Virus record (IMG/VR): IMGVR_UViG_3300008261_000075
Location: 1 to 64,000 of that record
Length of the DNA stretch: 64,000 bases
Direction: 5' to 3' (one strand)
From: a virus
Positions 10,941 through 32,700 of this stretch are shown piece by piece. The translations under genes were made by a program, and so were the position numbers. Each line of letters opens with the position of its first letter. The stretch's first letter is position 1. The notes below the pieces were generated by a model. The model searched no databases. It was not told the origin of the DNA and was given only the letters and a program-made list of their open reading frames with translations.

Positions 10941-11384
10941 ATGAGCTCAAATTCTAATTTATACAATAAAATAGTATTAACTGCACCTAGGCAAGAAAGC
11001 CCGTTGCCTCCTAAAACATACAAAGGTTTTAGTTCAATTAGCCCTGATAGCGAAAATTTTAACCTATTTGATCTTCAGTTAATCCGCCAAGATTTAATTA
11101 ATCATTTCCATGTTAGGCAGGGTGAAAGACTGATGAATCCTAGATTTGGAACTATCATATGGGATGTGTTATTTGAGCCGTTGACTGAAGAATTAAAGCA
11201 ATTAATTACTGCCAATGTAACAGATATAGTAAATTTTGATCCTCGTATTGTAGCTGACAATGTAGTGGTTAGTCAGTACGAAAGTGGCATTCAAATTGAA
11301 TGTCAATTAACATATTTGCCCTACAATGTGGCGCAGGGTATGCGATTACGATTCGATCAAGAAAATGGCCTGCTGGCTGAATAA
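10941..11384 (+). CDS. 25: gp25-like baseplate wedge subunit
   Basis: A 147-residue protein of the GPW/gp25 family, which nucleates sheath assembly on the baseplate. Visible hallmarks are FDLQLIRQDLINHFHVRQGE, RLMNPRFGTIIWDVLFEP and a C-terminal strand pattern ending YNVAQGMRLRFD. It begins directly after the gp5 stop codon, with a purine-rich GAGGAAG upstream inside gp5. The order gp5-gp25-gp6 is the same as in other T4-like phages. Confidence 0.9.
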   Translation: MSSNSNLYNKIVLTAPRQESPLPPKTYKGFSSISPDSENFNLFDLQLIRQDLINHFHVRQGERLMNPRFGTIIWDVLFEPLTEELKQLITANVTDIVNFDPRIVADNVVVSQYESGIQIECQLTYLPYNVAQGMRLRFDQENGLLAE

Positions 11385-11430: not shown

Positions 11431-14400
11431 ATGAGTGCAACAGATAGACAAAATAGACTTCTTGTAGCAGAAGACTGGAAGAAAATTTATCAAACCTTCC
11501 GCAATGCAGACTTTCAAAGTTACGATTTTGAGAATCTGCGTCGCACTATGATCAATTATATCCGCCAGAATTACCCTGAAGATTTTAACGATTACATCGA
11601 GTCCAGCGAATACCTTGCCCTAATTGATCTTATTGCGTTCTTGGGCCAAAGCATAGCTTTCCGTGTTGACCTCAATGCTCGTGAAAACTTCTTAGAATTA
11701 GCAGAACGCCGTGAATCAGTGCTACGTCTAGCACGTATGTTAAGCTACAACGCCAAACGAAATGTGCCTGCTAACGGACTATTAAAGTTTACAACGGTAC
11801 AAACAACTCAAAATATTATTGACAGCAACGGCCGTAATATTGCTAACCAAGCAATAGTGTGGAATGATCCTGCTAATCCTGGTTGGTACGATCAATTTAT
11901 TCGTGTAATTAATGCGGCTATTCCTGCAACTAGACAATTTGGCAATCCAGATGACAAGGCAACAATATACGGCATTCCTACAGAACAGTATAGATTCCAA
12001 GCAGTTAATTCAGATGTTCCTGTTTATAGCTTTACTAAAACAATAGACGGCCGCGCAATGAATTTTGAAATAGTCAGTACTGTGTTTAACGGCCAAGACT
12101 ACATTTACGAAGAAGCTCCTAAAGTTGGCAATAGACTAGCATTTTTATATAGAGATGACGGCAAAGGTGCACCTAGTTCAGGGTCTGGTTTCTTCTTACA
12201 TTTCCGTCAAGGAACTTTAAACACCGGCGCATTTGGAATAACTCAACCAAGCAATAACGAATCAGTAGATATTGATGCAACTAACATTAATAACGATGAT
12301 GTTTGGTTATACCGTTTAGATAAGGATGGAGTTGAAACAGAAGCATGGGATAAAGTACCTAGCTTTGAAGGCAACAATATTATCTATAATAGTTTAAAGA
12401 AAAATATTAGAAATATCTACGGAGTAGTTACTCGAGCAGGCGACCGCGTGAGCTTAGTGTTTAGTGATGGTACGTTTGGTAATGTACCATTAGGTACATT
12501 CCGCGCATATTACAGAACTAGTAACGGAATCTCATATACTATTAATCCTAAAGATATGAGAGGTATTACTATAACTGTTCCTTATGTTTCTAACATTGGA
12601 CAATTAGAAACTCTTAGTATTACTATGAGCCTTGGTTCTGGTGTCAGTAATGCCGCACCTGCAGAATCAAATACTAGTATTAAAATTAAAGCCCCGCAAA
12701 ACTACTATACTCAAAATCGTATGATTACAGGCGAGGACTATAATATTAGTCCACTGGCGTCGAGTCAAGAAGTTGCAAAAATTAAATCAGTTAATAGAAG
12801 TAGCAGTGGTATCAGCAGATATTTTGATCTAGTAGATCCAACTGGCAAGTATAGTTCAACTAATTTATTTGCAGATGACGGAGTATTATATCAAGAAGAA
12901 TATGTCGATAAAATTAGATTTAGTTATGCTAATAAAACAGACATAGAAGGTATTATCTACAACGATATTTTTGATATTATTAAAAAATCTAGTTTGAGAA
13001 ATTATTATTATAATCGATTTATCAAACTGGCAGCATCTAGTTTAAACATTAGTTGGTTTAATGTTACTTCTGATACTGGAATGAGCACAGGGTATATAGG
13101 TGATGCATTATTAAAGACTACCTATAAAGTGGGACAGTTTACTGCTACAGATTTAAAATATGTCGAAGCAGGTAGTTTAATTAAGTTTATTGCGCCCGCA
13201 GGATTTTATTTTGATACTACAAATAATAATGCTCTAATACAAGGAAACGCCACAGCATACGGGTCAACAACATACATATGGGCAGAAATTGTTTCAGTCA
13301 GCGGGGACGGCACTGCTAACGGCACAGGCGTATTAAGCACAGGGCTTGGACCTATTGTAATTAATGAAATCATCCCAGGTGATGATAATGTATCGCCGCT
13401 GATTAACCAAATTATTCCTAAATGGCGCACTGTTATTGATAATAGTGTTGTAACATCAATTATAGATTTAATATTTGCTAACAAGCCGTTTGGCTTAAGA
13501 TACGACACTACTACTAAATCATGGCAGATTATATTTGAAAGCAATCTTGACAGTAAGAATTCTTTTAGTTTAGGTAAGCAAGGCGATGTTTCTAATCAAC
13601 AATTAGATTCAAGCTGGTTATTACTATTCACAACAGACAACGAATTTTATACTGTAACTAGTCGAGAACTACGTTATATTTTTGAAAGTGACGAACAGAT
13701 TAGATTCTACTTTGATAGTACAAACAAGATTTATGACAGCAAGTCAAATGCCATTGTTAAAGATAACATTAAAGTATTAAGCATTAATAGATTACCTAGT
13801 GCAACACAGGCATACACTAGTGATCAATCATGGGACATTGTTTCGGAGTTTAGGGGAGTTGACGGATATATCGATAATAAAAAGATTTTAGTAACGTTTT
13901 CAGATCCCGACGACAACGGAGTAGTTGACGATCCAGACACGTTTGCTAATATAGTCGGCCCAACTATTGGCAACCCACTGACAAAATATATTATTCTTGA
14001 AAAATACGATGTTGCCCAAGGTCAACAAGATTATCGATACATTGATAATTCTACAGAGATAGTAAAAATATTAAACAGCGAAAAGGATATTGTAACATTT
14101 CTTAATTATGTTAATGGTCAGTACTTTTATTTTATAGATACTAACTTAGTTAAAAAACTTAATCTGGCTACGGCAACATTGATTAATAGCCTAGACTATA
14201 AAGTATTTTTAGGCAGAGACAAATTAAAATTTCAATATATTCATAATGCAGATTATGAATCAAGAATTGATCCTGGATCAAGTAATATTATAGATGTCTT
14301 TATTTTATCAAAGACCTATGACACTCAATTTAGGCAATTTCTAAACGGTAGTAGAAAATCTGCTCCTTTACCTCCTAGTAGCGATGCGTTGTACAATACA

Positions 14401-14889
14401 CTTTCTCCGTCTTTAAATGCGATTAAGTCTATTAGTGATGAAATTATCTATCATCCTGTAAGGTATAAATTATTGTTTGGCGCGGCAGCATCTGCAGAAG
14501 TTCAGGCAACATTTAAAGCAGTAAAGAATAGCAAACAAGTTATTTCTGATAACGACATCAAAGCACAAATATTGACAGCAATAAATCAATTTTTTGTTTT
14601 AGAAAATTGGGATTTTGGAGATACATTTTACTTCTCAGAGTTGGCCACATACGTAATGAATCAACTTGCGCCCAACATTACAAACTTTGTAATTGTTCCT
14701 AAAGCAAACGGTTTAAATTTTGGTAGCTTGTTTGAAATAAAAGCAAACTCTGATGAATTGTTTATTAACGGTGCTACTGTTGACGATATAGAAGTAATTT
14801 CAGGTATTACAGCAAGTACAATTAAAGCAACTAGTGCAACTAGTGTTAGCAGTAATGTTGTATCACAACAAACTATTACAAGTAATTAA
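11431..14889 (+). CDS. 6: gp6-like baseplate wedge subunit, long form
   Basis: The N-terminal 110 residues are typical of gp6 (FENLRRTMINYIRQNYPEDF, SSEYLALIDLIAFLGQSIAF, then RRESVLRLARMLSYNAKRN). T4 gp6 dimers link the six baseplate wedges into a ring. At 1152 residues this protein is much longer than T4 gp6 (660); the extra middle and C-terminal parts are beta-rich, Asn/Ser/Thr-rich insertions. Residues near 1000-1090 again look like a conserved wedge region. AGGATAAATC precedes the ATG. It is followed after nine bases by the giant structural gene. Confidence 0.88.
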   Translation: MSATDRQNRLLVAEDWKKIYQTFRNADFQSYDFENLRRTMINYIRQNYPEDFNDYIESSEYLALIDLIAFLGQSIAFRVDLNARENFLELAERRESVLRLARMLSYNAKRNVPANGLLKFTTVQTTQNIIDSNGRNIANQAIVWNDPANPGWYDQFIRVINAAIPATRQFGNPDDKATIYGIPTEQYRFQAVNSDVPVYSFTKTIDGRAMNFEIVSTVFNGQDYIYEEAPKVGNRLAFLYRDDGKGAPSSGSGFFLHFRQGTLNTGAFGITQPSNNESVDIDATNINNDDVWLYRLDKDGVETEAWDKVPSFEGNNIIYNSLKKNIRNIYGVVTRAGDRVSLVFSDGTFGNVPLGTFRAYYRTSNGISYTINPKDMRGITITVPYVSNIGQLETLSITMSLGSGVSNAAPAESNTSIKIKAPQNYYTQNRMITGEDYNISPLASSQEVAKIKSVNRSSSGISRYFDLVDPTGKYSSTNLFADDGVLYQEEYVDKIRFSYANKTDIEGIIYNDIFDIIKKSSLRNYYYNRFIKLAASSLNISWFNVTSDTGMSTGYIGDALLKTTYKVGQFTATDLKYVEAGSLIKFIAPAGFYFDTTNNNALIQGNATAYGSTTYIWAEIVSVSGDGTANGTGVLSTGLGPIVINEIIPGDDNVSPLINQIIPKWRTVIDNSVVTSIIDLIFANKPFGLRYDTTTKSWQIIFESNLDSKNSFSLGKQGDVSNQQLDSSWLLLFTTDNEFYTVTSRELRYIFESDEQIRFYFDSTNKIYDSKSNAIVKDNIKVLSINRLPSATQAYTSDQSWDIVSEFRGVDGYIDNKKILVTFSDPDDNGVVDDPDTFANIVGPTIGNPLTKYIILEKYDVAQGQQDYRYIDNSTEIVKILNSEKDIVTFLNYVNGQYFYFIDTNLVKKLNLATATLINSLDYKVFLGRDKLKFQYIHNADYESRIDPGSSNIIDVFILSKTYDTQFRQFLNGSRKSAPLPPSSDALYNTLSPSLNAIKSISDEIIYHPVRYKLLFGAAASAEVQATFKAVKNSKQVISDNDIKAQILTAINQFFVLENWDFGDTFYFSELATYVMNQLAPNITNFVIVPKANGLNFGSLFEIKANSDELFINGATVDDIEVISGITASTIKATSATSVSSNVVSQQTITSN

Positions 14890-14898
14890 GAGAAAAGA

Positions 14899-17800
14899 AT
14901 GGCAGATAAAACTAATCCAACTGACGGCGGCATCTCAAATTTCCTTCCGCGTTTTTACAGAACAGACGCCAATAAAAAGTTCCTACAAGCAACAATTGAA
15001 CAATTGGTCAAACCCGGCACGGTTAAAAAGATTAATGGTTATGTTGGTAGAAAAAACGCAAAAGCTGCCGTAGGCGAAGATATTTTCGTAGCAGCCCCAA
15101 CAGTTGACAGACAAAATTATCAGCTAGAACCTAGTATAACAATTGACGATGCGCTGGGCAATACTACTTTCTTTAAAGATTATCAAGATTACATTAACCA
15201 ATTAAATGTATTTGGTGCCAACGTTAAGAATCATAGTAGACTAAACGAGCAAGAGTTTTATTCTTGGGATCCACATATTGATTGGGATAAGTTTGTAAAT
15301 TTTCAACAGTACTATTGGTTGCCCTATGGGCCTGATCCAATAACAATTTTTGGCCAGCAGAAAAAGATTAACAGTACGTTTACTGTCGAAATTGATATTG
15401 AATTAGATGACAAGAGTTTCTTGTTTACTCCAAACGGACTAACACGTAATCCAACTATAAAATTATTTAGAGGTCAAACTTATAAATTTGAAGTTAACTC
15501 ACCTGGAGAACCTTTTAGTATTAAAACTAGACGAGTTGGCGGCAGCGATGACAGATATGCTGAATTAAACCACATTGATAATTTTGCAGTGGAAAAAGGT
15601 GTAGTAACTTTTGTAGTACCTGAAGATGCTCCTGACGTATTATTTTATGTTAGCGAAACAAATATCGACATGGGCGGTGTGTTTCAAATTTTAGATATTA
15701 AAGACAACACTGAGATTAATGTTGAAGAACAGTTAATTGGTAAAAGAGATTATACATTAGCAAATGGAACTAAACTTAGTAACGGTATGAAAATATCGTT
15801 TGGTGGAAACGTTCTTCCTGCTGAGTATGCTAAAGACCAATATTATGTTGAAGGGGTTGGCACTGCAATTAAATTAGTTGCTGAATCTTCATTAGCGTTA
15901 ATTACTCCATACAGCGAAGAAATAAATGTACTTTTTGATGACACAAAGTTTGACGAATTGCCGTTTAATACTGCAACAGTTTATTCAGGGCAAGTTGATT
16001 ATATTGCAATTAACAGAGCAAGTAGAGATAAAAACCCGTGGAGTCGTTACAACAAATGGTTCCATCAAGATGTAATCAATAAGAGTGCCGCGTATAATGG
16101 CAAAATAGCCGACTTAAATCAAAACATTCGAGCAGTTAGACCTATCATTGAATTTAATGCAGATTTAAAATTATACAACTTTGGTCTTGATGCTGCCCCA
16201 GATGTTGACTTAATTGACACATACACTACAGATGTGTTTTCTACAATTGAAGGTGCGTTAGGATATAATATTGACGGTGTTCCATTAGTAAACGGACATA
16301 AGATTTTATTCACCGCTGATAATGATATTTTAGTTAAAAATAAAACCTTCCAAGTTAAGTTTATTGAAGTACAAGATAGTATTAAACAGACTCGTGTTCG
16401 TCAGCTTCACTTAGTTGAAATAAACACACCACTTGACAATCAAGTAGTAGTTATTCGATCAGGCGAAAGCAACAAAGGTACAATGCGTTGGTTTAACGGG
16501 TCTGATTGGTTAGTAGCACAAAATAAAACCAGTTTAAATCAGCCACCACTATTTGATATAGTTGATGAAAATGGAAATTCTTTTGCAGATAAAACGGTGT
16601 ATGACGGATCTACGTTTGCTGGAACTAAAATTTTTAGTTACAAACCAGGGTCAGGGTCTAATGATACGTATTTGAACTTTCCACTTTCATATAGAAATAT
16701 CAACAACGTTGGCGATATTGTTTTTAATTTTGATGTTGTTGGTAATGTATTCCAGTACAAAGACGTAGAAAAAATCTTAGAAAAGAACGTAAGTACAGGT
16801 TTCTTTGTTAAATCAAAAGGCAACAACACAGTTGCATATGAAAACGGCTGGCAAAAAAGTGTTATTAATTTTACATATCAGCCTGCCTTACGAATTTACA
16901 AAAATTCAAATCAAATCAATAATTTTGATCTAGATATTTTTGACGACAAACATAACCTTACTGATCTTGAAGTACGAATTTATGTCAACGGTATTCGTTT
17001 AGATAAATCAAAATGGTCAATGGTAGACGGTGCAGTCTATAAAAAAATTCAGTTAGTATCAAATATTTCAACCAACGATATTTTAACAATCAAGGCGTTT
17101 GCAAGCCAGCCCATTAACGCAAACGGATTTTATGAAATTCCATTTAACTTACAGAACAATCCGTTAAACTCGGCCATTGGCGATTTTACATTAGGTGAAG
17201 TAATTGACCATGTCAACTCAATAATTGACAACTTACAAACATTTGAAGGACAATATCCTGGATCTAATAATCTTAGAGACTTAGGTAATACTACTGTCTT
17301 TGGTACAAAGTTTGTGCAACACAGTGGCCCAATGAGTTTGGCATTGTATCATATTACTAATCCTAATAGTAATGTTATACGAGCAATTGAAAAATCTAGA
17401 GACGAGTATGGTCAGTTTAAACGTAATTTCCTTTCTGTAGCATTGGGATTAGGTATTGATACTGATACTAAGCAACACGTAGATTTAGTTTTACAAGAGC
17501 TTAACAAAGATAAACCTAAAAAAGCAGCCTATTATTTCAGTGATATGGTCCCGTATGGCAGTGCAGTTAAAAATGAATACACTGTAATTGACTATAGAAT
17601 ATTAACATATCCTCTAACTCAAGTATTTGATCTAGACATGCTATCAAACAGAGCAGTTGGAGTTTACTTAAACGGTGTACAACTAGTTTACGGAATACAG
17701 TATGAGTTTGACAGTCAGGGATTTGTTAGAATTATTACTACAATGCAAGACGGTGATTTAATCACAATTTATGAATATGATAATACTGACGGATCGTTCG

Positions 17801-20800
17801 TCCCGCAGACTCCTACTAAATTAGGTATATGGCCTGCATTTGAACCTAAAATTTATTTAGACACTAGTTTAATAACTCCTAGAACAATGATCCAGGGCCA
17901 TGACGGTAGCCAGGTATTGGCGTTTGGTGACTTTAGAGATGAGTTAATTTTAGAATTAGAAAAGCGAATATTTAACAATATCAAAGTGAAGTACAACCCG
18001 GCTATATTTGACGTTTACGATATATTACCAGGCTACGGCAGAGAAAATGATTATTCTTTAAAAGAATTTAATGAAGTGTTAGCTCCTAACTTTTTCAAAT
18101 GGACAACGCTGATTGACAGAGACTTTACTAAACCGTTAAGTTTTGACAAAAATAATAGCCTTACATTTAACTACAGAGGACAAACTGCTCCCGACGGGAG
18201 AGAAGTTCCAGGGTATTGGAGAGGTATATATCGATGGATGCTAGATACAGACAGACCAAATATCTGTCCATGGGAGTGTCTTGGTTATACAATTGAGCCA
18301 TCTTGGTGGCAAGATGTGTATGGGCCAGCACCTTATACTAGCAATAACAAAGTTATGTGGCAAGATTTATCAGAAGGTATAATAAAAGAACCAGGTAAGC
18401 CAATAGAACGTAATCCTAAATTTATTAGACCATTTTTGATAGATTGTATTCCTGTTGACGAATTTGGTAATTTAATAAGCCCGTTGTTTTCTAATATGGC
18501 CGCAGGCCTTATCACTCAAAGTACATCTGGAGACTTTGTATTTGGAGATGTTAGCCCTATAGAAGCAGCCTGGAGAAGAAGTAGCTATTATCCATTTAGT
18601 CTACTGCTAACGTCAATTCTTTTAAAGCCAGCAAACACGTTTGGAGTATTACTAGATAGATCAAGAATTATCCGTAACCTAACAGGACAACTAGTTTATA
18701 AAGACACTGGATTGCGAGTTACACCGACTGACTTAATATTACCTAACATTTATTCTAGTGACACTAGAGTTCAAACAGCAGGATTAATCAACTATATTGT
18801 TGACTATGTCATTGCAGATAATTCTAAGTCTTATGATCAATACCTTTATGATTTAAACAACATTAGCTTTAAATTAAGTTATAGAGTTAGTGGATTTACT
18901 AGTAAAGACAAATTTAATTTATTGTTGGATAGCAAAAATCCCACAGCAGTAGGCGGCGTATTTGTTCCTCCTGAAAATTTTAAAATTGTTTTAAATTCTA
19001 GTAGTCCTATAAAACGTTTAACATATAGCGGTGTAATAATTACAAAATTACACGACGGATACGAGGTCAAAGGATATAGTAAAACTACACCTTACTTTGA
19101 ATATTATCCTTGGATACAAAGCGGCAACACTATTAACGTAGGAGGCATGAGTGAAAGTTATATTATTTGGACATCTAACCAGCGGTATACTACCGGTAAG
19201 GTTGTAAGCTATGGTAACTCATTCTATCGATGCACAGTAACCCATGTTGCGTCTGACACGTTTGAACAAGCTAATTTCCAAAGACTTCCTAAGTTGCCAG
19301 TCATTGGCGGCCGAGACGCAGTACTGAGAAAATTATGGGATCGAAGAGAATTACTGGTCCTTCCATACGGTACTAAATTTAGAACTATTCAGGAAGTAGT
19401 GGATTTCCTACAAGGTTACGGCGAGCGTTTAAAGGATCAAGGATTTGTATTTGACGACTTTAACAACACCCTTGGGCAGATAACTAACTGGGAAACCAGT
19501 GCCAAAGAATTCTTATTTTGGACTACACAAAATTGGAGTTCAGGCCAAGACAAGTGGAACGACTGGTCTGCAGATCAGCCTGTTAACTACGGTAGTATTG
19601 TAAGATACAATGGTGACTATTACAGAGCTGTAAGAAATGTCCCAACTAGTAGTATATTTGAAGAACAATACTATGACAAGTTAGAAGGACTAAGCACAGT
19701 TGGTAGCAGTGTTATTGCTCTAAGTCCAGCAGCCAACAAAATTGTTATCAAGTCAGACTTTGCAGTGGTAGACGATATATTAAATCAATTTAACGGATAC
19801 GATATTTTTAAAGTTGATGGAACAAAATTAGAACCTAATTTTCTTAACTCATATAGATCAGGCAATTTAGTCACGTACTCACCTGCAAATTCTGAAGGCA
19901 TATTTGGTGCTACATTCTTTTTAATACAAAAAGAACAAGTAGTTATTTTAGATAATAATACGCTATTCAACGATACAATTTATAATCCAGAAAGTGGTTA
20001 CAGACAAGAACGAATTAAAACTTCTAGTTATGTTAGTACTACATGGGACGGCAGTTTTGATGTACCTGGTTTTATATTTGATCAAGCAAAAATACAAGAA
20101 TGGAACGCATGGACAGATTACAGTTTAGGCGACATTATCAAATATAAAGAATTTTATTACAGTGCAAAAACTGCAATAGTTGGCGAATCTACGTTTAATG
20201 ACAGCGAATGGACTCGACTTTCTGAAAAGCCAACACCTAACCTGTTGCCTAACTGGTCTTACAAGGCTGCACAGTTTACAGATTTTTATAGTCTGGACAG
20301 CGGAAACTTTGATGTAGGCCAACAGACAATGGCTCAACATTTAATTGGATATCAGAAGCGTCAATATCTAAGTAATATTATTAAAGATGATGTTAGTGAA
20401 TTTAAATTCTATCAAGGCATGATAATTGAAAAAGGCACGCAAAATAGCTTGAACAAGTTGTTTGATGTGCTCAGTGCTGACGGTCAAGAAAGTTTAAAAT
20501 TCTTTGAGGAATGGGCAGTACGTGTTGGGCAATATGGTGCCAGTTCTGCGTTTGAAGACATTGAATTTACGCTAGATCAGAGTTTATTTAAGAATAATCC
20601 ACAAGGGTTTGAGTTAACTCAATTACCAGTAGACAAGTTAGATTTTATTATACGACAAACTCCCAATGACGTCTACTTAAAACCGTTTGGCTATAATAGT
20701 CAACCTTGGTTAGTTAACAATAAGTTTAGTCCATTTTTAAGAACTCCTGGATATGTTCGTAGAGAAGATGCCGCATTGGTATTAGATAACATTAATGAAA

Positions 20801-22983
20801 TTCTTACAAAAAATCCAGATCCACTAAATGAAGGTGATTATGTTTGGTGTGCATTTGAGGGCAGAGAGTGGAACATTTATAGATACACTGCTAGTCCGTT
20901 AAAACTTACAGATGCAACTTACACTTCAAATACGTTAACTTTAACATTTGATGAGCAAGTGCGATTAGAGCCCGGTACGTATATAAGTGTTGTGCAAGTA
21001 GATAAGTTTAGCGGATTTTATAAAATTGATTCAGTAACATTAAATCAAATTAAAATTAAAACAGCGTTAAAAGTTCCTCCTGCCACACCTTTTATAGATC
21101 AAACAACTGCTCAAGTATTGTTTTTGAAGAGTCAGCGTATAGATTCAATCGATGATGCAAATAGTATTCTTCCAGACAATATCGGTCTCAACGAAAAATT
21201 GTGGACTGACAATCGAGGCGACGGCAAGTGGGCAGTATGGAATTATTCTAAAGTCTTTGAACCTAAAGAGTTTGTTAACTCGAGTCCTACAGATGAACTA
21301 GCCTATGGTAGAAGCATTAGCACTGATATCAAAGGTCAGTATGCGGCTGTATCAACACGCGACGAAATTGTAATCACGTATGACAAAGTTCCAGGGTCAA
21401 ACAAATGGTTGCAACGCCAAAGTATTGCAGAACCGTTTATATTTGCGCTATCAAATAGACCTGCAAATATTTCAGCAGGATATTCTTTTGGTGAAACTGT
21501 TTCAGTATCTAAAGATGGCGAGTGGTTGGTTGTTGGTAGCCCTCGAGCAAGTTTTGCATCAACCTACTTTGCAGGCCTGCACAATAGTGGTCAAACTTAT
21601 AGTCAAGATCAAGTAGTGTATTCAAACTTGTTCCATTATTCTGCCAAACAAAGTGTGCCAGTGGGCACTGCTATTACCAACACTCAGTATTGGAAACCAA
21701 CAAATATTATAGAAACAACGATTACAGGCGCATCAAACGCTCTTACTAGACACGGTGCAATTTCTCTTTACAAGATAGATATTTCAAATACTGCAAATTA
21801 CGTAGGTACAATTATTAGCCCGTACCCTGCTAGCGATGAACTGTTTGGAACTAGTATTACATTTGGTAATGATACAATGTTTGTTTCTGCGGTTGATAAA
21901 GTATATCAACTAAATTATAATACCATTACTGCTACCGCAACTTATTTGCCATTAGGTAGTACAGGTATTACGTTAAAAGTATCTAGCACAGCTACTATTG
22001 AAGTTGGAATGTTTATAACAGGAACAGGATTCCAAGGTTATCAAACTGTTGCTAGAGTTATTGACAGTACTACAATACAAATTAGTGAAGCTCCTAATGC
22101 AACCCCGTTTGGTACATTAACATTTAAAATTTCTCGTTGGGAATATAGCTACAACAGAAAGTATAAAGGTCAATGGAACAATACTGCTGTATATCTAAAA
22201 GACGATTTAGTGCAATATAAAAACAAGTTATATCTAGCACTTTCTACAGTTACTTCATTAGACACGCCGGTAGCAAACGTTGAACAATGGATAGAAAACA
22301 ATCCAACTAACATTACAGGTGTTTTCCCGCAACAGTTAACACCTACATACTTGCCATTGACTACAGAAAAAGTTGAAGCAGTTCAAACTGGTAATCAATA
22401 TGGATATTCTGTAAGTATTAGTAATGATTTTACAAAACTAATAGTCTATTACAAGTGCATTTATAATTTTAATAATACAGTAGCAGGTGTGTGGAATGGA
22501 TCACGATGGGAACAAGTATTTTCAATAAATCAACGTATAGCAACAGGCAAAGTATTTGTCTATACCTTAACTAACAATTCATATATTTTAACTCAAACGT
22601 TATCAGCTACTGGCAATGCTGCCACGTCAAATCAACGATTTGGAGATAGCGTAGCAGTATCCGGAAACGGCAAATATTTGGCCATTGGCTCTACATTATA
22701 TGACGGTACTAACATAGACCAAGGTAGAGTATTAATTTATGATCAAGTAGGTACTAATTTTAATGTATATCAAGAACTAGTTAGTAATAATCCTGAGACG
22801 GCAGAGTTCTTTGGTGCAAAACTAGCATTTATGAACAACTACGAAACACTGGTAGTGTTCAGCGCCAACGGCGACAGCTACAAGTCTACTGTGTTTGATA
22901 CCGACTCTACAATATTTGACAACGGGGTAATGAACTTAGTTGAAGATATTAAGGTGCACCTTATGCTACAGATAGAACTTTAA
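14899..22983 (+). CDS. Giant tail/baseplate structural protein, N-terminal part (frameshifted)
   Basis: A 2694-residue ORF that appears to be the first half of one gene of about 4,960 codons ending at 29789. The N-terminus (ISNFLPRFYRTDANKKFLQA, then HIDWDKFVNFQQYYWLPYGP) looks like a conserved phage structural start, and the place after gp6 is where T4 has gp7 and gp8, but homology to these is not evident by eye. Repeated modules include V.LNG..L...YEF..QG beta units, at least five W..Y..GD.V.Y...YY.A units resembling CBM5/12 glycan-binding modules (about residues 1426-2470), and FG-GAP-like propeller repeats (about 2150-2670, e.g. FGDSVAVSGNGKYLAIGS). The last ten codons are out of frame. 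Confidence 0.8.
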   Translation: MADKTNPTDGGISNFLPRFYRTDANKKFLQATIEQLVKPGTVKKINGYVGRKNAKAAVGEDIFVAAPTVDRQNYQLEPSITIDDALGNTTFFKDYQDYINQLNVFGANVKNHSRLNEQEFYSWDPHIDWDKFVNFQQYYWLPYGPDPITIFGQQKKINSTFTVEIDIELDDKSFLFTPNGLTRNPTIKLFRGQTYKFEVNSPGEPFSIKTRRVGGSDDRYAELNHIDNFAVEKGVVTFVVPEDAPDVLFYVSETNIDMGGVFQILDIKDNTEINVEEQLIGKRDYTLANGTKLSNGMKISFGGNVLPAEYAKDQYYVEGVGTAIKLVAESSLALITPYSEEINVLFDDTKFDELPFNTATVYSGQVDYIAINRASRDKNPWSRYNKWFHQDVINKSAAYNGKIADLNQNIRAVRPIIEFNADLKLYNFGLDAAPDVDLIDTYTTDVFSTIEGALGYNIDGVPLVNGHKILFTADNDILVKNKTFQVKFIEVQDSIKQTRVRQLHLVEINTPLDNQVVVIRSGESNKGTMRWFNGSDWLVAQNKTSLNQPPLFDIVDENGNSFADKTVYDGSTFAGTKIFSYKPGSGSNDTYLNFPLSYRNINNVGDIVFNFDVVGNVFQYKDVEKILEKNVSTGFFVKSKGNNTVAYENGWQKSVINFTYQPALRIYKNSNQINNFDLDIFDDKHNLTDLEVRIYVNGIRLDKSKWSMVDGAVYKKIQLVSNISTNDILTIKAFASQPINANGFYEIPFNLQNNPLNSAIGDFTLGEVIDHVNSIIDNLQTFEGQYPGSNNLRDLGNTTVFGTKFVQHSGPMSLALYHITNPNSNVIRAIEKSRDEYGQFKRNFLSVALGLGIDTDTKQHVDLVLQELNKDKPKKAAYYFSDMVPYGSAVKNEYTVIDYRILTYPLTQVFDLDMLSNRAVGVYLNGVQLVYGIQYEFDSQGFVRIITTMQDGDLITIYEYDNTDGSFVPQTPTKLGIWPAFEPKIYLDTSLITPRTMIQGHDGSQVLAFGDFRDELILELEKRIFNNIKVKYNPAIFDVYDILPGYGRENDYSLKEFNEVLAPNFFKWTTLIDRDFTKPLSFDKNNSLTFNYRGQTAPDGREVPGYWRGIYRWMLDTDRPNICPWECLGYTIEPSWWQDVYGPAPYTSNNKVMWQDLSEGIIKEPGKPIERNPKFIRPFLIDCIPVDEFGNLISPLFSNMAAGLITQSTSGDFVFGDVSPIEAAWRRSSYYPFSLLLTSILLKPANTFGVLLDRSRIIRNLTGQLVYKDTGLRVTPTDLILPNIYSSDTRVQTAGLINYIVDYVIADNSKSYDQYLYDLNNISFKLSYRVSGFTSKDKFNLLLDSKNPTAVGGVFVPPENFKIVLNSSSPIKRLTYSGVIITKLHDGYEVKGYSKTTPYFEYYPWIQSGNTINVGGMSESYIIWTSNQRYTTGKVVSYGNSFYRCTVTHVASDTFEQANFQRLPKLPVIGGRDAVLRKLWDRRELLVLPYGTKFRTIQEVVDFLQGYGERLKDQGFVFDDFNNTLGQITNWETSAKEFLFWTTQNWSSGQDKWNDWSADQPVNYGSIVRYNGDYYRAVRNVPTSSIFEEQYYDKLEGLSTVGSSVIALSPAANKIVIKSDFAVVDDILNQFNGYDIFKVDGTKLEPNFLNSYRSGNLVTYSPANSEGIFGATFFLIQKEQVVILDNNTLFNDTIYNPESGYRQERIKTSSYVSTTWDGSFDVPGFIFDQAKIQEWNAWTDYSLGDIIKYKEFYYSAKTAIVGESTFNDSEWTRLSEKPTPNLLPNWSYKAAQFTDFYSLDSGNFDVGQQTMAQHLIGYQKRQYLSNIIKDDVSEFKFYQGMIIEKGTQNSLNKLFDVLSADGQESLKFFEEWAVRVGQYGASSAFEDIEFTLDQSLFKNNPQGFELTQLPVDKLDFIIRQTPNDVYLKPFGYNSQPWLVNNKFSPFLRTPGYVRREDAALVLDNINEILTKNPDPLNEGDYVWCAFEGREWNIYRYTASPLKLTDATYTSNTLTLTFDEQVRLEPGTYISVVQVDKFSGFYKIDSVTLNQIKIKTALKVPPATPFIDQTTAQVLFLKSQRIDSIDDANSILPDNIGLNEKLWTDNRGDGKWAVWNYSKVFEPKEFVNSSPTDELAYGRSISTDIKGQYAAVSTRDEIVITYDKVPGSNKWLQRQSIAEPFIFALSNRPANISAGYSFGETVSVSKDGEWLVVGSPRASFASTYFAGLHNSGQTYSQDQVVYSNLFHYSAKQSVPVGTAITNTQYWKPTNIIETTITGASNALTRHGAISLYKIDISNTANYVGTIISPYPASDELFGTSITFGNDTMFVSAVDKVYQLNYNTITATATYLPLGSTGITLKVSSTATIEVGMFITGTGFQGYQTVARVIDSTTIQISEAPNATPFGTLTFKISRWEYSYNRKYKGQWNNTAVYLKDDLVQYKNKLYLALSTVTSLDTPVANVEQWIENNPTNITGVFPQQLTPTYLPLTTEKVEAVQTGNQYGYSVSISNDFTKLIVYYKCIYNFNNTVAGVWNGSRWEQVFSINQRIATGKVFVYTLTNNSYILTQTLSATGNAATSNQRFGDSVAVSGNGKYLAIGSTLYDGTNIDQGRVLIYDQVGTNFNVYQELVSNNPETAEFFGAKLAFMNNYETLVVFSANGDSYKSTVFDTDSTIFDNGVMNLVEDIKVHLMLQIEL

Positions 22984-23279
22984 ATTCAGGTTTAATTTTT
23001 AGTTATGAAAAACCAGCACACACATTAGCATGGACTCAAATTCAAACCGAAGAAGATAAACCAGACATCTCTAAGATTAAGAAAGCGTTTTTATACAATA
23101 AGAGAACAAACAAGCTAATAACTTACCTAGACATTATTGATCCAATCCAAGGCAAAGTTCCAGGAATTGCAGAACAAGAAATCAAGTTTAAAACTTATTA
23201 TGACCCTGCAACATACACTGTTGGTACAAGTGCTGTAAAAGTTGATGACGGACAGGCATGGACAACTACTAAAGTTGGC
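22950..23279 (+). other. Continuation of the giant gene in the next frame
   Basis: From 22953 the frame used by the downstream ORF is open and reads GAPYATDRTLNSGLIFSYEK onward into the 23280 ORF without a stop or start codon. It joins smoothly to ...NGVMNLVEDIK encoded upstream. One extra A in GATATTAAGGTG (to give ATT AAA GGT) would fuse both ORFs, so the break near 22951-22953 is a one-base deletion, real or technical. Confidence 0.8.
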
Positions 23280-26200
23280 ATGCTATGGTGGGATTTAACT
23301 CGTGCTAAATTTATTGACAGCTACGGCGGCGATGTAGTGTATCGTAACACCACATGGAATACATTGTTTGATACTGCAAGTATTGACATATACGAATGGG
23401 TAGAGACTAGTTTAAAACCTGCAGAGTGGGATAAAAGAGCTGATACCGAAGCTGGATTGTCATCAAATATCAGTGGCACAAGTCTATATGGCAATTCAGT
23501 TTATAGTGTTAAGAAACGATATGATAACGTTTCTAAAACTTTTAAAGAAACATATTACTTTTGGGTAAAGAATAAAAAAACAATACCTAACGTACAAGAC
23601 AGACGGATGAGTGCTTCTGACGTTTCCGGATTGATTTCTAATCCAAAAGGCCAAGGATACAAATACCTTGCGCTAACAGGATTAAATTCATTTAGCTTGG
23701 TTAATGTTAAGCCATTGCTACAAGACACTGATGTTGTGTTGTCTGTACAATATTGGACCATTGACAAGACTGATCAAAATATCCATAGCGAGTGGCGCCT
23801 AATAAGCTCAGACGAAAATACAGCACTTCCTGCTAGCATTGAAGAAAAGTGGTTTGACAGTTTGTGTGGCAAAGATCAAAATAATCGCGTAGTACCTGAT
23901 TTAAATCTTCCACCTAAATTACGATACGGCGCAGAATTCCGCCCACGTCAAAGTTTGTTTGTTAATCGCTTTGAAGCTCTAAAACAATTTGTTGAACGTG
24001 CAAATAGTGTCATGTTAACTAATCAAATTGTTGAGACTCGTGACATTTTAGCATTAAGCAGTTATGACCCACAACCAAGCATTATCACAGCGTTATACGA
24101 CGAAGTGTTTGATACTGATGCAGAATTAAGATTTGCCAGTGTTAGTACGTTTAAAGCACCTTCTTTATTACCTATAATTCAAGACGGTTCTATAGTTGGG
24201 GTAGAAATTATTGAAGCTGGTAACGGATATGTAACTGCGCCCTATATAACAGTTAAGGGTAACGGACATAGTGCAGAATTACAAGCATTAATTAATAGTC
24301 GAGGTCAAGTTGTTGGCGTAAAAATTATTGAAGAAGGTAAAGGTTATGACAGCGCAACTGTTTTGGAATTAAGAAACTATTCTGTTTTAATTCGTAGTGA
24401 TAGTCAAGCACTCAACAGGTGGAGCATATATGCATACACTCCAAACTCTAGAACATGGTCTAGAACTCAAAGTCAAGCATATGATACTCGCCGCTATTGG
24501 AACTATGCTGACTGGTATGCTGCCGATGTTAACCAATTTACATTAGCAGATTTTTCAGTTGAAACAATTAGTGATATTAATAATCTAACAGTTAAGATTG
24601 GTCAATATGTTAAAGTTAGAACTACTGGCTCAGGCGGCTGGGACTTGTTACAAAAATACGCTGATAGTATTAGTATTGACTGGACACAGAGTTATAAAGT
24701 AGTAGGTAGTCAAAACGGAACAATTCAATTAAGTAGTGAACTTTATAAATTTTCAGACACTACTTTGGGATTTGATGGTGCGTTATTTGATGGTGACACT
24801 TTTGACAACACCGCAGTTATTGAATTAAGAATTATTCTTGAGACTTTAAAGAATAAAATCTTTATTGACACTTTAAAACAAACTTACTTAGATTTATTCT
24901 TTGTATGCTTACGTTATGCATTGTCTGAACAGACGTATTTAGATTGGGCATTTAAAACTAGCTTTGTTAGAGCTCAACATAATGTTGGACCTTTAAAACA
25001 AAAAGTTACATTTAATAACGATAACCTTGCAGATTTTGAAGCATACATTGCAGAAGTAAAACCATACAGAACTCAAATTAGAGAGTATGTTAGTGAATAC
25101 ACTGCAATAGATCAAACTGAAACTTCAGTAACTGACTTTGATATACTTCCTGTTTATAGAGAAGGAAAAACACTTCCAGTTGCAGTAGCCAACGTTAACG
25201 GTGACATTCAATCGTTAGAACCGGCTATTTTAACTTATCCTTGGAAGTACTGGCTAGATAATGTTGGATTTGAAATTTTATCTATTAAAATTGTTGACCA
25301 AGGTAGTGGATACATTACTGAACCCGTGGTTAGAATTATTGATCCAGATACACAAAGTACCTCAACCGCCGCCACAGCTAGAGCATTTATTTCTAACGGT
25401 AAGTTATCTAGAATAGTATTACTAACATCCGGCAAAGGCTATCTAACAACTCCAACTATAGTGATTGACGGCGGCCTTGATATTGACGGGACTCCAGCAA
25501 GGGCAATTGCAATTATTGGCAATAGTGTTGTTCGTAGTAATCTTATCAAAATGAAATTTGATAGAACTAGTAGAACATATTTTATTACAGAATTAGAAGA
25601 GTCGGCAGCATTTACTGGCACAGGCAATCAATTACAGTTTGCACTAAAATGGGCTCCAGATATTAGAATTGGAAAAAGTTTAGTAAAAGTTGACGGAGTA
25701 GAAGTGTTGAGAGCCAACTATAAATTAGCCGTCAACAAATCCACAGTTAGGGGATACACTAGTTATTATGGAACATTGACATTTGAAACTCCACCGGCCA
25801 AGGCAGCAGTTATCACTATTGATTATATTAAAGATTGGTCGCTACTAAGCGCCGCAGATAGAATTCAATACTACTACGATCCAAAAACCGGCCAACTTGG
25901 TAAAGACCTAGCACAATTAATGACTGGTGTTGATTATGGCGGTGTAATTATCACTGGTTTAGATTTTGGCATATCAACTGGTTGGGATAGTGTTCCGTAT
26001 TTCTCTGATAGATGGGACGAGATCGATCCTACCTTTGATGACTACATTATTAAAGCAGGCTTAAATTCAAACGAATTTACTTTGCCATACATTCCAGAAT
26101 ACGACACAGTTATTAACATATACCATAACGGTATTAGGATTGACGACTTAAACTACGGTACAGAACAACAGACTAATATTAATGCTACAATGCAAACATT

Positions 26201-29200
26201 TGTAGGAGATGGTATTATCAGCACAATATCGTTACCGTCAATTGCAGTTACAGTTGATACAGATTTAATTGCGGTGCAAGGCGCAACAGCAATTCAGTTG
26301 ACTGATGTATTAACTATTCAACCTGGTAGTTTAGTGTTGTCACCTAATGTAATTGTTAACGGATCAACGGTTATCTTTGTAACAGGTAATGTTGTTCCGT
26401 CATCAACTACTGGGTCAATTAACGACACTGTGTTAACTGCACCTGGCCTAACAACTTACGCAACAGGTATGAAAGTAACTGGTATAGGAGTTGCGGCAGA
26501 TACTTATATTGTATCCGTTACTCCTGGCGTACAAGGTATTGCAGAAATTCAAAAGATTTTAGTAACTGGTACCGCTACCGGCCCTGTATCGTTCTTGGGA
26601 TCAGTAGTGCCAAGTGTAGTATCTGGCAATACTGCTAAACAAGTAGTTAACAGGATTGTGTCAAACAGAGCAGGCATAATTTCTGCTTGGAACAGTCTAA
26701 ATCCTACTCGTATAATTCAAGAGTTAGAAATTGATCTTTTTGAGGACGGTGACTCGACCATCAAAGTAACCTATAGTCTATCTTCTGGAAATGTACCAAA
26801 TCTACCTCAGCAGATCAGTAATGGTATTAATTTTGGAAATAGTGTAACTTCAAGAAGTGGTCTTGCAGGCACAGTTTCAACGGCAGTAATATCAGTTAGT
26901 CAAGTTGTTGGACCAACAATGTTAACCTTTACGCCTGTAATAGAAATTTCTAATGCTATTTTAGCAGATATATCGTCATTATCAGAACTAGTTGTTGGTA
27001 ATGTATCTGTGTTTACTGCTGGAAATCAATTAAAGAATTCAACAAAAATAACAGTAAGTAATGCTACCGGGGTTAACGAAGGCGACATAGTAAGTTCTTT
27101 ACTAGAACGCATTACAACATCTGCAATATTATCAAACACTGCGGTAGTTGATATTGATCCAGTAACAAACATTGTGACATTGTCTACTCCTTTATCTAGC
27201 GAAATTCCTGCAGGCACTGCATTAACTTTTGGTTATAACAAGTTAGCGTTCCGTAAGAGTACTAGTGACGGATCAATTAAGCCACAAGAAGTTGATTATG
27301 ATACTAGTTTATCAGGTGGTGCATTTGTAGGATCTGCACTAACAAGTGCAACAGGTCTTGCTCCAGACGATATTATTCTAGATGGTGACGGCTTAGTAAC
27401 ACCAACAACTAGTTCTGATCTAGAAGAAGTTGTTCCAGGTCAAATCTTAGATGCTGTTGCAATTAAAGTATTTTATAGACCAACATCTGGTGCCGCAAAT
27501 ATTCGAGTTGATAATCATATTGCCAACGGTACTACTCAAACGTACTCGTTTAATCAATATATCAACAGTTCAGAAGCAGTATTGGTAAAAGTTGACGATA
27601 CTATCCTTACTTTAGATGACGACTATCAAGTAGATTACAGGAATCGAACAATAGAGTTATCAGCAATACCGCAGGTAGGTGCAATAGTTTCTATATTCAA
27701 CTACGGATTTAATGGATCTGGTGTGCTAGACATTGATTACTTTGTAGGAGATGATGATACATTTGAATTTATTACCAAAGCTCCTTGGTTAGACACAGTG
27801 TCCGCAATAGCTTATGTTGACGGACTAGTAGAGCCTTTTGAATTATTTCAAACAGACGACACATATGACAGTGTCAACACAGTTGGTATTAGATTTGGTG
27901 CCACACCAGTTGCCAATGCAATTATAAATTATGTGATTGTTGACAATAAAAATGAAACGTTTAGTTTAGTTAAATCTGAACGATTTGTTTCGAACGGAAC
28001 AGCTACAGTTTTTAACTTAGAAAATCCTGTAGGAACAACAGAACCGTATGCACCTAATGTAATAGTTAGGGCAGGGCAGACAATTCTAGCACCTGCTAAC
28101 AATGTTTACTTTACTATTGGTAAAAATAAACTTAATTACACAATTGATCAAACTAAAGCTAGACCGTATGAGCCAGACATGGATGAAATACTTGTCTATG
28201 TAGATGGTGTTCAACTGCAAGTAAATGTAGACTACATTATCGATCCAGCAGGCATCACAGTTAAGATCAATAGAACAGTATACAACAATAACAAAGGAAA
28301 ATTATTAGTAATCAGTATCATAAACAATCAACAATATTTGATGACAGGTACGTCTTTAGTGTTAATGCAGCCCCAGCCTACTGGCACAGAAATTGAAGTA
28401 GTTAATGCTTACAAACATCAAGTGCTAGATATACACCGTACAAGTATTTCAGCTAAATCTGATCTAAGTTACGAGCCTGACACAGTTGAGTATTATAATT
28501 TTAATAATATCCTTAGTGGTTATATTAAACTTGACCGACCAGTGATTGACGATGCTGGGGTGTGGGTTACTAAAAACGGACAACTGTTAACTCCTAGCGT
28601 TGATTATAAACTCAACTCAGATAAACAGAGTATCACATTATTAAATACTGTTGCAGTCAATGATAAAATTGATTTAATCACGTATTCAACTAATGTTTAC
28701 CAACAGACTATGAGTTATATGCAGTTTAAAGACATGTTGAATAGAACACACTTTAAACGTCTAGCGTTACGCAAACAGACAAGGTTAACCCAACCGTTGA
28801 ATTTTTATGATTTTGAAATTTATGTAGAAGATGCATCAACATTTGATGTGCCTAACATGAGTAAAAATTTACCAGGAGCAGTAGAAATCAACGGCGAACG
28901 CATTGAATATTTTGAAAAAGATGGTAACGTTTTACGAAGATTAAGAAGAGGTACACTAGGTACAGGAACTGCACAAGTATATCCAAGAGGTACTAAAGTT
29001 CAAGATATTGGACCAAGTGAAACTATTCCGTATCGTGACGAAACACAAGTCCTACAGTTTACTTCGTCAGGTAGCAATACCTTCAACTTAGAATTCTTAC
29101 CAACAAAGTCTAACACTGAATGGTCTTTTGCCAATGGGTTTACTTCAACTATTCCTACAGGCTACGGACAGTCAAATGATATAGAAGTGTTTGTTGGCGG

Positions 29201-29789
29201 CTATGACAACAGTCAAATATGGATACCGTCTACAGTTTATCAAGTAGATACTATAGTTCAAGTTGGCAGTTACAATTATAGATGCGTGACTGCGCATACA
29301 TCTAGCACTAGATTCTCGCTAGACTCAGCTTACTGGCAATTCTTTGTAGGCAACATCAGACTTAAAAAACATCCATTCAAAGTACATAATGTTGGCATTC
29401 ACAGCGAAAGTCCCGAGGGAGATGTACAATTTGACCCTGACTTTGCAGTTGACGGTGACACAACAGCAGTGAGACTAACTCATGCTCTTGATCAAGGAGT
29501 TAAGGTCACAGTGGTTAAGAAGACCGGCAGATTGTGGACTGGTATTACATACAATCCTACACCTGCTGTGTTTGATGGGGTAGAAACTGATTTTGACACA
29601 GGTACTACTGTGTTTGATCAAAGAGACAGCGCAATACTTTCTCAAGCAAATAGAAATATTATTGAGTTCTTGAGAGCAGAACCTGGAATATGGTATTCTG
29701 GTTCTAAAAACGTAATAGGTACAGCAACTTACGATTCGTCAACTACAACGTTTGACGGTACCGAAACAAAATTTGATAAAGGGAATTAA
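23280..29789 (+). CDS. Giant tail/baseplate structural protein, C-terminal part
   Basis: A 2169-residue ORF whose apparent ATG at 23280 is internal to the giant gene; no ribosome site precedes it. It contains two GxGY-type repeats (VEIIEAGNGYVTAPYITV and VDQGSGYITEPVVRI), a conserved block DFEAYIAEVKPYRTQIREYV typical of large phage virion proteins, and many V.VDG..L....DY.......I.L...P..G..I.I..Y beta modules in the second half (for example residues 1420-1470 and 1625-1810). A sixth W..Y..D..V..G...Y module lies near residue 1980. The C-terminal region (ERIEYFEKDGNVLRRLRRGT) resembles ends of other marine phage structural proteins. Function is likely baseplate or tail-fibre-network structure. 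Confidence 0.8.
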   Translation: MLWWDLTRAKFIDSYGGDVVYRNTTWNTLFDTASIDIYEWVETSLKPAEWDKRADTEAGLSSNISGTSLYGNSVYSVKKRYDNVSKTFKETYYFWVKNKKTIPNVQDRRMSASDVSGLISNPKGQGYKYLALTGLNSFSLVNVKPLLQDTDVVLSVQYWTIDKTDQNIHSEWRLISSDENTALPASIEEKWFDSLCGKDQNNRVVPDLNLPPKLRYGAEFRPRQSLFVNRFEALKQFVERANSVMLTNQIVETRDILALSSYDPQPSIITALYDEVFDTDAELRFASVSTFKAPSLLPIIQDGSIVGVEIIEAGNGYVTAPYITVKGNGHSAELQALINSRGQVVGVKIIEEGKGYDSATVLELRNYSVLIRSDSQALNRWSIYAYTPNSRTWSRTQSQAYDTRRYWNYADWYAADVNQFTLADFSVETISDINNLTVKIGQYVKVRTTGSGGWDLLQKYADSISIDWTQSYKVVGSQNGTIQLSSELYKFSDTTLGFDGALFDGDTFDNTAVIELRIILETLKNKIFIDTLKQTYLDLFFVCLRYALSEQTYLDWAFKTSFVRAQHNVGPLKQKVTFNNDNLADFEAYIAEVKPYRTQIREYVSEYTAIDQTETSVTDFDILPVYREGKTLPVAVANVNGDIQSLEPAILTYPWKYWLDNVGFEILSIKIVDQGSGYITEPVVRIIDPDTQSTSTAATARAFISNGKLSRIVLLTSGKGYLTTPTIVIDGGLDIDGTPARAIAIIGNSVVRSNLIKMKFDRTSRTYFITELEESAAFTGTGNQLQFALKWAPDIRIGKSLVKVDGVEVLRANYKLAVNKSTVRGYTSYYGTLTFETPPAKAAVITIDYIKDWSLLSAADRIQYYYDPKTGQLGKDLAQLMTGVDYGGVIITGLDFGISTGWDSVPYFSDRWDEIDPTFDDYIIKAGLNSNEFTLPYIPEYDTVINIYHNGIRIDDLNYGTEQQTNINATMQTFVGDGIISTISLPSIAVTVDTDLIAVQGATAIQLTDVLTIQPGSLVLSPNVIVNGSTVIFVTGNVVPSSTTGSINDTVLTAPGLTTYATGMKVTGIGVAADTYIVSVTPGVQGIAEIQKILVTGTATGPVSFLGSVVPSVVSGNTAKQVVNRIVSNRAGIISAWNSLNPTRIIQELEIDLFEDGDSTIKVTYSLSSGNVPNLPQQISNGINFGNSVTSRSGLAGTVSTAVISVSQVVGPTMLTFTPVIEISNAILADISSLSELVVGNVSVFTAGNQLKNSTKITVSNATGVNEGDIVSSLLERITTSAILSNTAVVDIDPVTNIVTLSTPLSSEIPAGTALTFGYNKLAFRKSTSDGSIKPQEVDYDTSLSGGAFVGSALTSATGLAPDDIILDGDGLVTPTTSSDLEEVVPGQILDAVAIKVFYRPTSGAANIRVDNHIANGTTQTYSFNQYINSSEAVLVKVDDTILTLDDDYQVDYRNRTIELSAIPQVGAIVSIFNYGFNGSGVLDIDYFVGDDDTFEFITKAPWLDTVSAIAYVDGLVEPFELFQTDDTYDSVNTVGIRFGATPVANAIINYVIVDNKNETFSLVKSERFVSNGTATVFNLENPVGTTEPYAPNVIVRAGQTILAPANNVYFTIGKNKLNYTIDQTKARPYEPDMDEILVYVDGVQLQVNVDYIIDPAGITVKINRTVYNNNKGKLLVISIINNQQYLMTGTSLVLMQPQPTGTEIEVVNAYKHQVLDIHRTSISAKSDLSYEPDTVEYYNFNNILSGYIKLDRPVIDDAGVWVTKNGQLLTPSVDYKLNSDKQSITLLNTVAVNDKIDLITYSTNVYQQTMSYMQFKDMLNRTHFKRLALRKQTRLTQPLNFYDFEIYVEDASTFDVPNMSKNLPGAVEINGERIEYFEKDGNVLRRLRRGTLGTGTAQVYPRGTKVQDIGPSETIPYRDETQVLQFTSSGSNTFNLEFLPTKSNTEWSFANGFTSTIPTGYGQSNDIEVFVGGYDNSQIWIPSTVYQVDTIVQVGSYNYRCVTAHTSSTRFSLDSAYWQFFVGNIRLKKHPFKVHNVGIHSESPEGDVQFDPDFAVDGDTTAVRLTHALDQGVKVTVVKKTGRLWTGITYNPTPAVFDGVETDFDTGTTVFDQRDSAILSQANRNIIEFLRAEPGIWYSGSKNVIGTATYDSSTTTFDGTETKFDKGN

Positions 29790-29794
29790 TTAAA

Positions 29795-32700
29795 ATGGCA
29801 AAACAAATTATCAATGTTGGTGCTCGTAATAACGATGGTACAGGCGATTCGTTAAGAGTTGGAGCAACCAAGGTTAACGACAACTTTAGTGAAATTTATA
29901 ATCTACTAGGTGACGGTGAAAATTTAAGCGTTGTTTCTAGAATTACTGCTGGCATAGGTCTAGCAGTTGGTAACAATACTGGAGCAGTGCTAATTACAGG
30001 TCGTATTGCGTCTGGTAACGATCTAGGAATGATTAAGGTTGGTGAAAATTTAACAATTAGTCAAGACGGAACATTGAGCGCACAGCAAACAGAATATATT
30101 TTACCCACAGCATCGTCTACTGTGTTGGGAGGTGTTAAAGTTGGTTCGGGGTTAGCAATAAATCAAGGTGTACTTAGTAACACTGTGTCAGCATACACTC
30201 TTCCAACTGCATCTACTAGTTTACTTGGTGGAGTAAAAGTTGACGGCACTAGTATTACAATCAACAACGGTGTTATCAGCGGAAGCAATCAGTATTCTTT
30301 ACCAACAGCAACTGACAGCATACTAGGCGGTATAAAAATTGGCGCTGGCTTATCTATTAGTCAAGGAGTTGTTAGCGTAACTGGCACTAGTAATTTGGCC
30401 ACAGTGGCTACTACAGGCAGTTATAATGATTTATTAAACCAGCCAGCTCTGTTCAGCGGCGCATATGCAGACTTGAGTGGCACTCCGACTATTCCTTCTG
30501 CACAAATACAAAGTGATTGGAATCAAGCTAGTAATGTAGCATTGGATTTTATTAAGAATAAGCCAACTATTCCATCTGCATATACACTGCCCACAGCAAC
30601 AACAAGTGTATTAGGTGGTGTAAAAGTTGATGGTACAACTATTACTATTGCCGATGGAGTTATTAGTTCAGTTAGTACAGATCCTAACCTTTGGGTTGAA
30701 ACATTTGCAATGGCTCCTCTAGAGGAAGGTATTGTACAGATAGCAACCAGCGTGGAATATGATGCAAGTGGAAATATTTTTGCCTTGTTCAGCCATTATG
30801 TACCTGGACCTGATACCAACTCTTCCGACGACGACATAACTTATACCTCTGTGGCCAAGTTAACCCCCGCCGGTGCTGTAATATGGAGGGTTCGTTTTGC
30901 TAACACTCTAAACACAGACGGGTGGGGCTTGGCCTATGACGGCGCCGACGCTGTATACATTGCCGGTCAACAGCGTCCAAACTCGCTGACCTATAGATCT
31001 GCCACACTGACTAAGATAGACGCAGTTGATGGCAGCATAGTATGGGGCAAAACCTACGATTTTGGATACTATAGCGGTAGTCCTGTAGTAGATGTAGACG
31101 TTGACGGTAATCCTATTATGGTAGGCTATGCTGACAACAGTATAGATAGTATGATCGTTACTAGTAAAATTGATCAAGCAGACGGCACAGTAATATGGTC
31201 AAAGACTCTAGACGGCCAGGGCGACGATCAAGCCTATGGTATGGCTGTGGGTCCTACAGGGGAAATTGTTACTATTGGTTATGTTGATAGGATCGGAGTA
31301 CAAGATGCAGTTGCAACAGTTGTTACAATACCGCCAACTAACCCTAATTGGACAGACGCATACAGTGTTTCTAATGGCAGCTTTTCGTGTGATATCACTT
31401 TTGCTAGTCCAGGCAATCCAACATTCAGCAACGTTGTAGACACTGTGGGTAACAGAACAATAGGAGACACACTAGTAACTGTAATGGGTTCAGATCTTGG
31501 AGGGATGGACGGTGATGATGATATGATTATCAATGTTGCCACTTTAGCTCCAAACGACACAGTCAATCGTATGATTGTGATCAAGTATGCTGCCGACGGT
31601 ACTATTACTTGGCGCAAAGCTGTGCAATTTGACATAGGTTTAAATTGCACAGGAGCAGATGCTGACATTGATGCAGCCGGCAACATTTACGTGTGCGGCA
31701 ATTACGATACGCCAGGCGAAGACGTGGCAATGGGGTTGCTCAAACTGGACAGTAGTGGAGTTAAACAATGGAGTAGACGAGTACAAGGTGACTGTCTTGA
31801 CTTTGCTACCAGCGTAGTAGTAGGTCCCGACAACAACTTGTACTTGAGTGGTGTTACAGGTAGGTTCGGTCTTTCAGATTTTGTCTGGGTTGTAGCCAAG
31901 TATAGTACTACTGGTACAGTGATATGGCAACGTTTAATCGATAATACTGCCAGTTGGACATTTAACGGTGGAATATTTTTTAATAACTCAGGTGGTAGTA
32001 ATCTTGCTGTGAGAAACGAATATGTAGCATTGGCTGGCGGGTTTGCCAATCTTGACCTCAATGAGTCGTCAACGGCTACGGTGGTACAAATTGACACCAA
32101 CGGTACTATGTTTACCGTAAGCGATTGGGCTATTACAGGTGCTTTATTTACAGGCTTGTTAAATGCTACAGCTAGTGATATTACAGTGGTTAACGTTGGC
32201 AAGACTTCAAACACAGTGACGCCAGGAGTGGCTGATTTTGTTGTTCAAGAAGATGCCACTAACTTCTTATCTGTCACACAATATAACCCAAGCGCCATCG
32301 AAAACGCCAGTAGTATAAACAACGGTGCATATTCAGTAAGTGTTAACACGAATGGTGTTGTCACTATGGCAACAAGCCGTGGCTCACTGGAGTTCGGAGC
32401 ATTGCCAGAAATTGGCGGCACAACTCACTTCCACATAATGAAGACTGCTGGAGACACCGCCGATCTATACTTTGGTGATGACTACAACTATATGCTACAG
32501 CGTGGGCCAGCATACCTTGGATCGCCTGCATATGGTGTTGAGATTGGAACCAACGACAATGACGCCGGCAATCAGCATGTGTGGCGTTTTGGCACAGATG
32601 GTAGACTAACACTACCTGGTGGCGAAGCATGGGTAGAGGTTAGCGGTGACGGCGGCGTAAGCATTCTCGAAGGCGAATATGCGTTTGATGATATTCCTGT

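Follow-up and report, generated by a model that had tools for sequence, protein, structure and literature searches.

The 64,000-nucleotide stretch of viral DNA analysed here (the window; positions 1 to 64,000 of the 109-kb IMG/VR record IMGVR_UViG_3300008261_000075) carries two very long open reading frames, one behind the other and in different frames. This raises the question of whether they are two genes or one and, if one, what broke its frame. The original prediction had proposed a single giant tail gene interrupted by the loss of one base at the AA run (22951-22952). Here we find that both long frames are halves of one giant phage baseplate gene. Very probably, 14899-29789 is a single baseplate-associated virion gene whose frame was broken when a 133-base piece was lost during assembly of the metagenomic contig. 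The two parts are as follows.

14899-22983, plus strand: 5' part of the giant virion gene, an ORF of 2694 aa (phrog_10938, E=2e-234)
22953-29789, plus strand: 3' part of the same gene, in a frame open from 22953 (phrog_10938, E=1.4e-82)

In a profile search both were assigned to phrog_10938, a family of virion structural proteins whose profile spans 3,324 positions, with a match over most of the conserved core. The coordinates of the two ORFs (14899-22983 and 23280-29789) and the opening of the downstream frame at 22953 were as originally described. As far as the junction at 22951 the first ORF encodes the true protein, and its last 10 codons (22954-22983) are out of frame. Downstream, an ATG at 23280 opens a 2169-aa ORF (23280-29789) that could be taken for a second, separate gene, but the 109 codons preceding this ATG encode conserved protein: matches to phage proteins start at residues 10-48 of the 22953 frame, in which the ATG is residue 110. 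Nor does a Shine-Dalgarno-like motif precede 23280, while all 11 of the other starts checked have a match of at least 3 bases. On this sequence evidence 23280 is no real start. Furthermore, the region lies in one frame in all 80 IMG/VR relatives, 77 of which have at least 300 bases of upstream frame, the locus itself beginning at the region in the remaining three. Complete uninterrupted ORFs are found at 46 IMG/VR loci and in four annotated phage genomes, and all relatives have one ORF. Two separate genes are therefore extremely improbable, and the expectation that the downstream frame continues the upstream protein was correct.

The nature of the break is revealed by two contigs from other metagenomes, 3300027798_000131 (L002) and 3300027808_002597 (L003), which were recovered by an IMG/VR search with the downstream protein. 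They are 99.86-100% identical to the window with zero single-base gaps, and both have 133 extra bases at the same point.

22951-22952, no strand: junction J2, 133 bases absent and frame broken; the bases are present in L002 and L003

In L003 the gene reads through as a single ORF of 5,041 codons, rather than the approximately 4,960 first estimated for the intact gene, so that a single uninterrupted gene exists in L003 and in all relatives though not in the window's own record. The 28-mer spanning J2 in the window is absent from every other viral contig searched, in a scan that may leave out records very near the window, and the intact junction occurs in both sister contigs. The lost segment codes for approximately 44 residues (IDSGRIDVYDRYATKWIYSESLQTDAVIGDGYGTGFTVGSNTILI, including the codons at its edges), and its counterpart is kept in the complete environmental relatives. 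Because 133 is 3x44+1, the loss mimics one missing base. It is true that one added base joins the frames, but a single-base sequencing or assembly error has almost no credence when both near-identical contigs hold 133 bases at this position and relatives encode the missing segment; it is refuted, short of an identical error in both contigs. The earlier view that the break is technical in origin is probably right, with a different cause, namely the absence of the 133-base segment. Programmed ribosomal frameshifting, in which the ribosome would enter the second frame by a -1 step at AAG (22951-22953), is scarcely believable either: there is no classical slippery heptamer at the site, the relatives are already in one frame and need no shift, and the product would miss a conserved segment.

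The missing residues belong to a recognisable domain, which is also affected by a second loss not seen in the original prediction.

21280-23010, plus strand: FG-GAP beta-propeller region (Pfam FG-GAP_2), interrupted by J1 and J2
22445-22446, no strand: junction J1, an in-frame loss of 102 bases within the same giant gene

Pfam FG-GAP_2 scores 33.7 bits with the window protein and 40.6 bits with that of L003 (cut-off 23). A model of the intact L003 propeller region (pLDDT 79.5, pTM 0.80) matches propellers in fold comparison at modest TM-scores, among them integrin alpha heads and FG-GAP proteins of viruses, and thus FG-GAP repeats and a propeller fold are indicated by Pfam, model and fold comparison alike. 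The J2 loss corresponds to model residues ~592-636, comprising several propeller strands, and the J1 loss to residues ~389-423. Adding one base, as originally proposed, does restore the frame, but it does not restore the protein, which is still short of ~44 conserved residues and a further 34 upstream; such a repair leaves the propeller domain damaged because J2 and J1 both remove propeller residues.

Two further losses are found outside the giant gene.

33222-33223, no strand: junction J3, where the window lacks 177 bases that L002 has, in frame and unmarked, close to the 3' end of the gp9/10-like gene
55751-55752, no strand: junction J4, where the window lacks 39 bases that L089, a strain 98.8% identical, has

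J4 takes out 13 residues near the C-terminus of its gene, which we take from its sequence to be GTP cyclohydrolase I. It is the least certain of the four losses because it is known only against the 98.8% identical strain. At J1 to J3 no base is shared between the two sides of any join, and the window holds no N. We also observed that seven bases of the window (CACATTT, 856-862), in a part that holds no long ORF, are absent from the near-identical contig L171.

Most likely the split is an assembly artefact. According to this reading, two contig ends would have been joined across an unsequenced and unmarked gap, which is the most likely source of the 133-base loss, and the loss would shift the frame and divide the giant gene into two ORFs. 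In its favour are the presence of the J2 segment in both L002 and L003, the three further blunt gaps, and the ends of the sister contig 3300027798_000131, one of which falls exactly at J4 and the other 4 bases from J1. Two random ends would match these points so closely with a chance of ~3e-7, the 4-base tolerance having been chosen afterwards. Since the contig terminates at one of the four junctions and within a few bases of another, these look like assembly break points. Repeat-mediated collapse was considered as a route to such losses and rejected: the window contains nothing close to a copy of the missing segments, and of the three segments looked for across the full 109-kb record, that of J2 among them, none was found elsewhere in searches run without a positive control. 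In the 3.76 Mb of fetched IMG/VR loci (L002-L247) all 61 runs of N are one base long. This pattern would be compatible with longer runs of N having been deleted, or not recorded in the first place, and scaffold gaps may accordingly be silent in the collection. The same single-base runs show that not every N has been stripped from it, which counts against an artefact.

That assembly or scaffolding, rather than deletion in the phage, removed the bases is what we infer, and observations on the other side have to be weighed. Three of the four losses are divisible by three (chance ~0.11), which also speaks against an artefact, as selection acting on real deletions gives the same pattern. The short form is, moreover, what the record shows, and the sister contigs come from other samples. 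It is nonetheless very unlikely that the 133 bases were truly lost in the sampled phages, whether in all or in part of them, leaving a pseudogene or two shorter proteins, given that the four losses are blunt, share no bases and lie in a window otherwise nearly identical to its sisters, that a contig ends at two of them, and that this conserved virion gene is intact in every relative. Very unlikely indeed is the wider proposal that all the losses are real and that a phage population carries deletion alleles of the giant baseplate gene, so that either the protein comes as two pieces or the genomes are defective.

Taking the split as an assembly artefact, these findings are a caution, since a public viral contig contains four or more unmarked gaps within 64 kb. 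One of these looks exactly like a one-base frameshift, and adding a base would hide the error. Gene counts or pseudogene calls made from such records can be wrong.

The giant gene is embedded in a baseplate neighbourhood, in the order gp25-like gene, gp6-like gene, giant gene, gp9/10-like gene. Its neighbours are as follows.

10941-11384, plus strand: gp25-like baseplate wedge gene (phrog_43 and phrog_261, baseplate wedge subunit), so named from families and synteny
11431-14889, plus strand: gp6-like baseplate wedge gene (phrog_10646 and phrog_219, baseplate wedge subunit), the gp6 name following from synteny with PA5oct, Atu_ph07, Phosso, Syn9 and P-SSM4
29795-33241, plus strand: baseplate gene with a gp9/gp10-type N-terminus (PF07880; phrog_677, phrog_958), its 3' end holding J3

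The 46 complete environmental loci encode 4,543 to 5,658 codons, and uninterrupted relatives overall range from 3,807 to 5,658 aa. The longest intact environmental member found (L077:1022-17998) has its 5,658 codons in one frame. Literature searches on giant phage genes yielded nothing about this particular gene. A family of single proteins of ~4,500-5,700 residues with an FG-GAP propeller, from environmental T4-like phages, is a useful and little-described resource for baseplate evolution. Two additional modules bear on its likely role.

15424-15699, plus strand: module at residues 176-267, common to cyanophage tail-fibre and baseplate proteins
19168-19263, plus strand: CBM_5_12-like carbohydrate-binding module at residues 1424-1455 (41.8 bits, cut-off 26.2)

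Our best inference is that the giant is a baseplate-edge protein that would help to contact the host surface through its carbohydrate-binding-like modules, small beta-repeats and FG-GAP propeller.

Among named systems, T4 gp7 (1,032 aa, about a fifth of the giant's length) has the same place, after gp6 and before gp8/9/10-type genes. Homology to it was sought by hhalign over the whole protein or blocks and over tiles, with no significant match; the Pfam Gp7 domains are found in T4 gp7 and not in the giant, and a PDB sequence search returned only a chitinase chitin-binding domain, with no support for gp7. An AlphaFold model of the conserved residues 1480-1990 (pLDDT 54.8) was too poor for a fold search. 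The giant protein would appear to occupy the T4 gp7 place at the baseplate wedge and, since the homology tested for was not found, it cannot be filed as gp7. One paper reports that cyano- and pelagimyophages lack T4 gp7 and that VrlC appears to take its place (PMC7029224). The giant is not equated with VrlC, which P-SSM4 carries as a separate downstream gene.

The closest named counterparts are the phrog_10938 genes of jumbo phages, each a single ORF: gp355 of PA5oct (3,857 aa), for which the record entry notes detection by ESI-MS/MS, gp180 of Atu_ph07 (4,449 aa), the Phosso protein (4,555 aa) and gp140 of SCTP-2 (3,807 aa). In PA5oct, Atu_ph07 and Phosso the giant directly follows a gp6-like wedge gene, as it does in the window. 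Identity to the window giant is only 25-30% over the matching parts, and none of the four shows a counterpart of the J2 propeller segment. The same order of gp25, gp6, giant and gp9/10-like genes is seen in the cyanophages Syn9 (gp101, 6,076 aa) and P-SSM4 ('gp7', 7,312 aa). The latter (L256:4145-26083) is one ORF of 7,312 codons and exceeds every family member seen. Overall homology to these cyanophage giants was not accepted, as only repeat modules match by sequence; small beta-repeat modules are common to them and the window giant, whereas the cyanophage genes are longer. The suggestion that the window gene ranks among the longest structural genes of T4-like phages was overstated, since these syntenic genes are longer in the same place and its size is therefore unexceptional among T4-like phages. 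The giant gene exists, is large, and belongs to a known kind.
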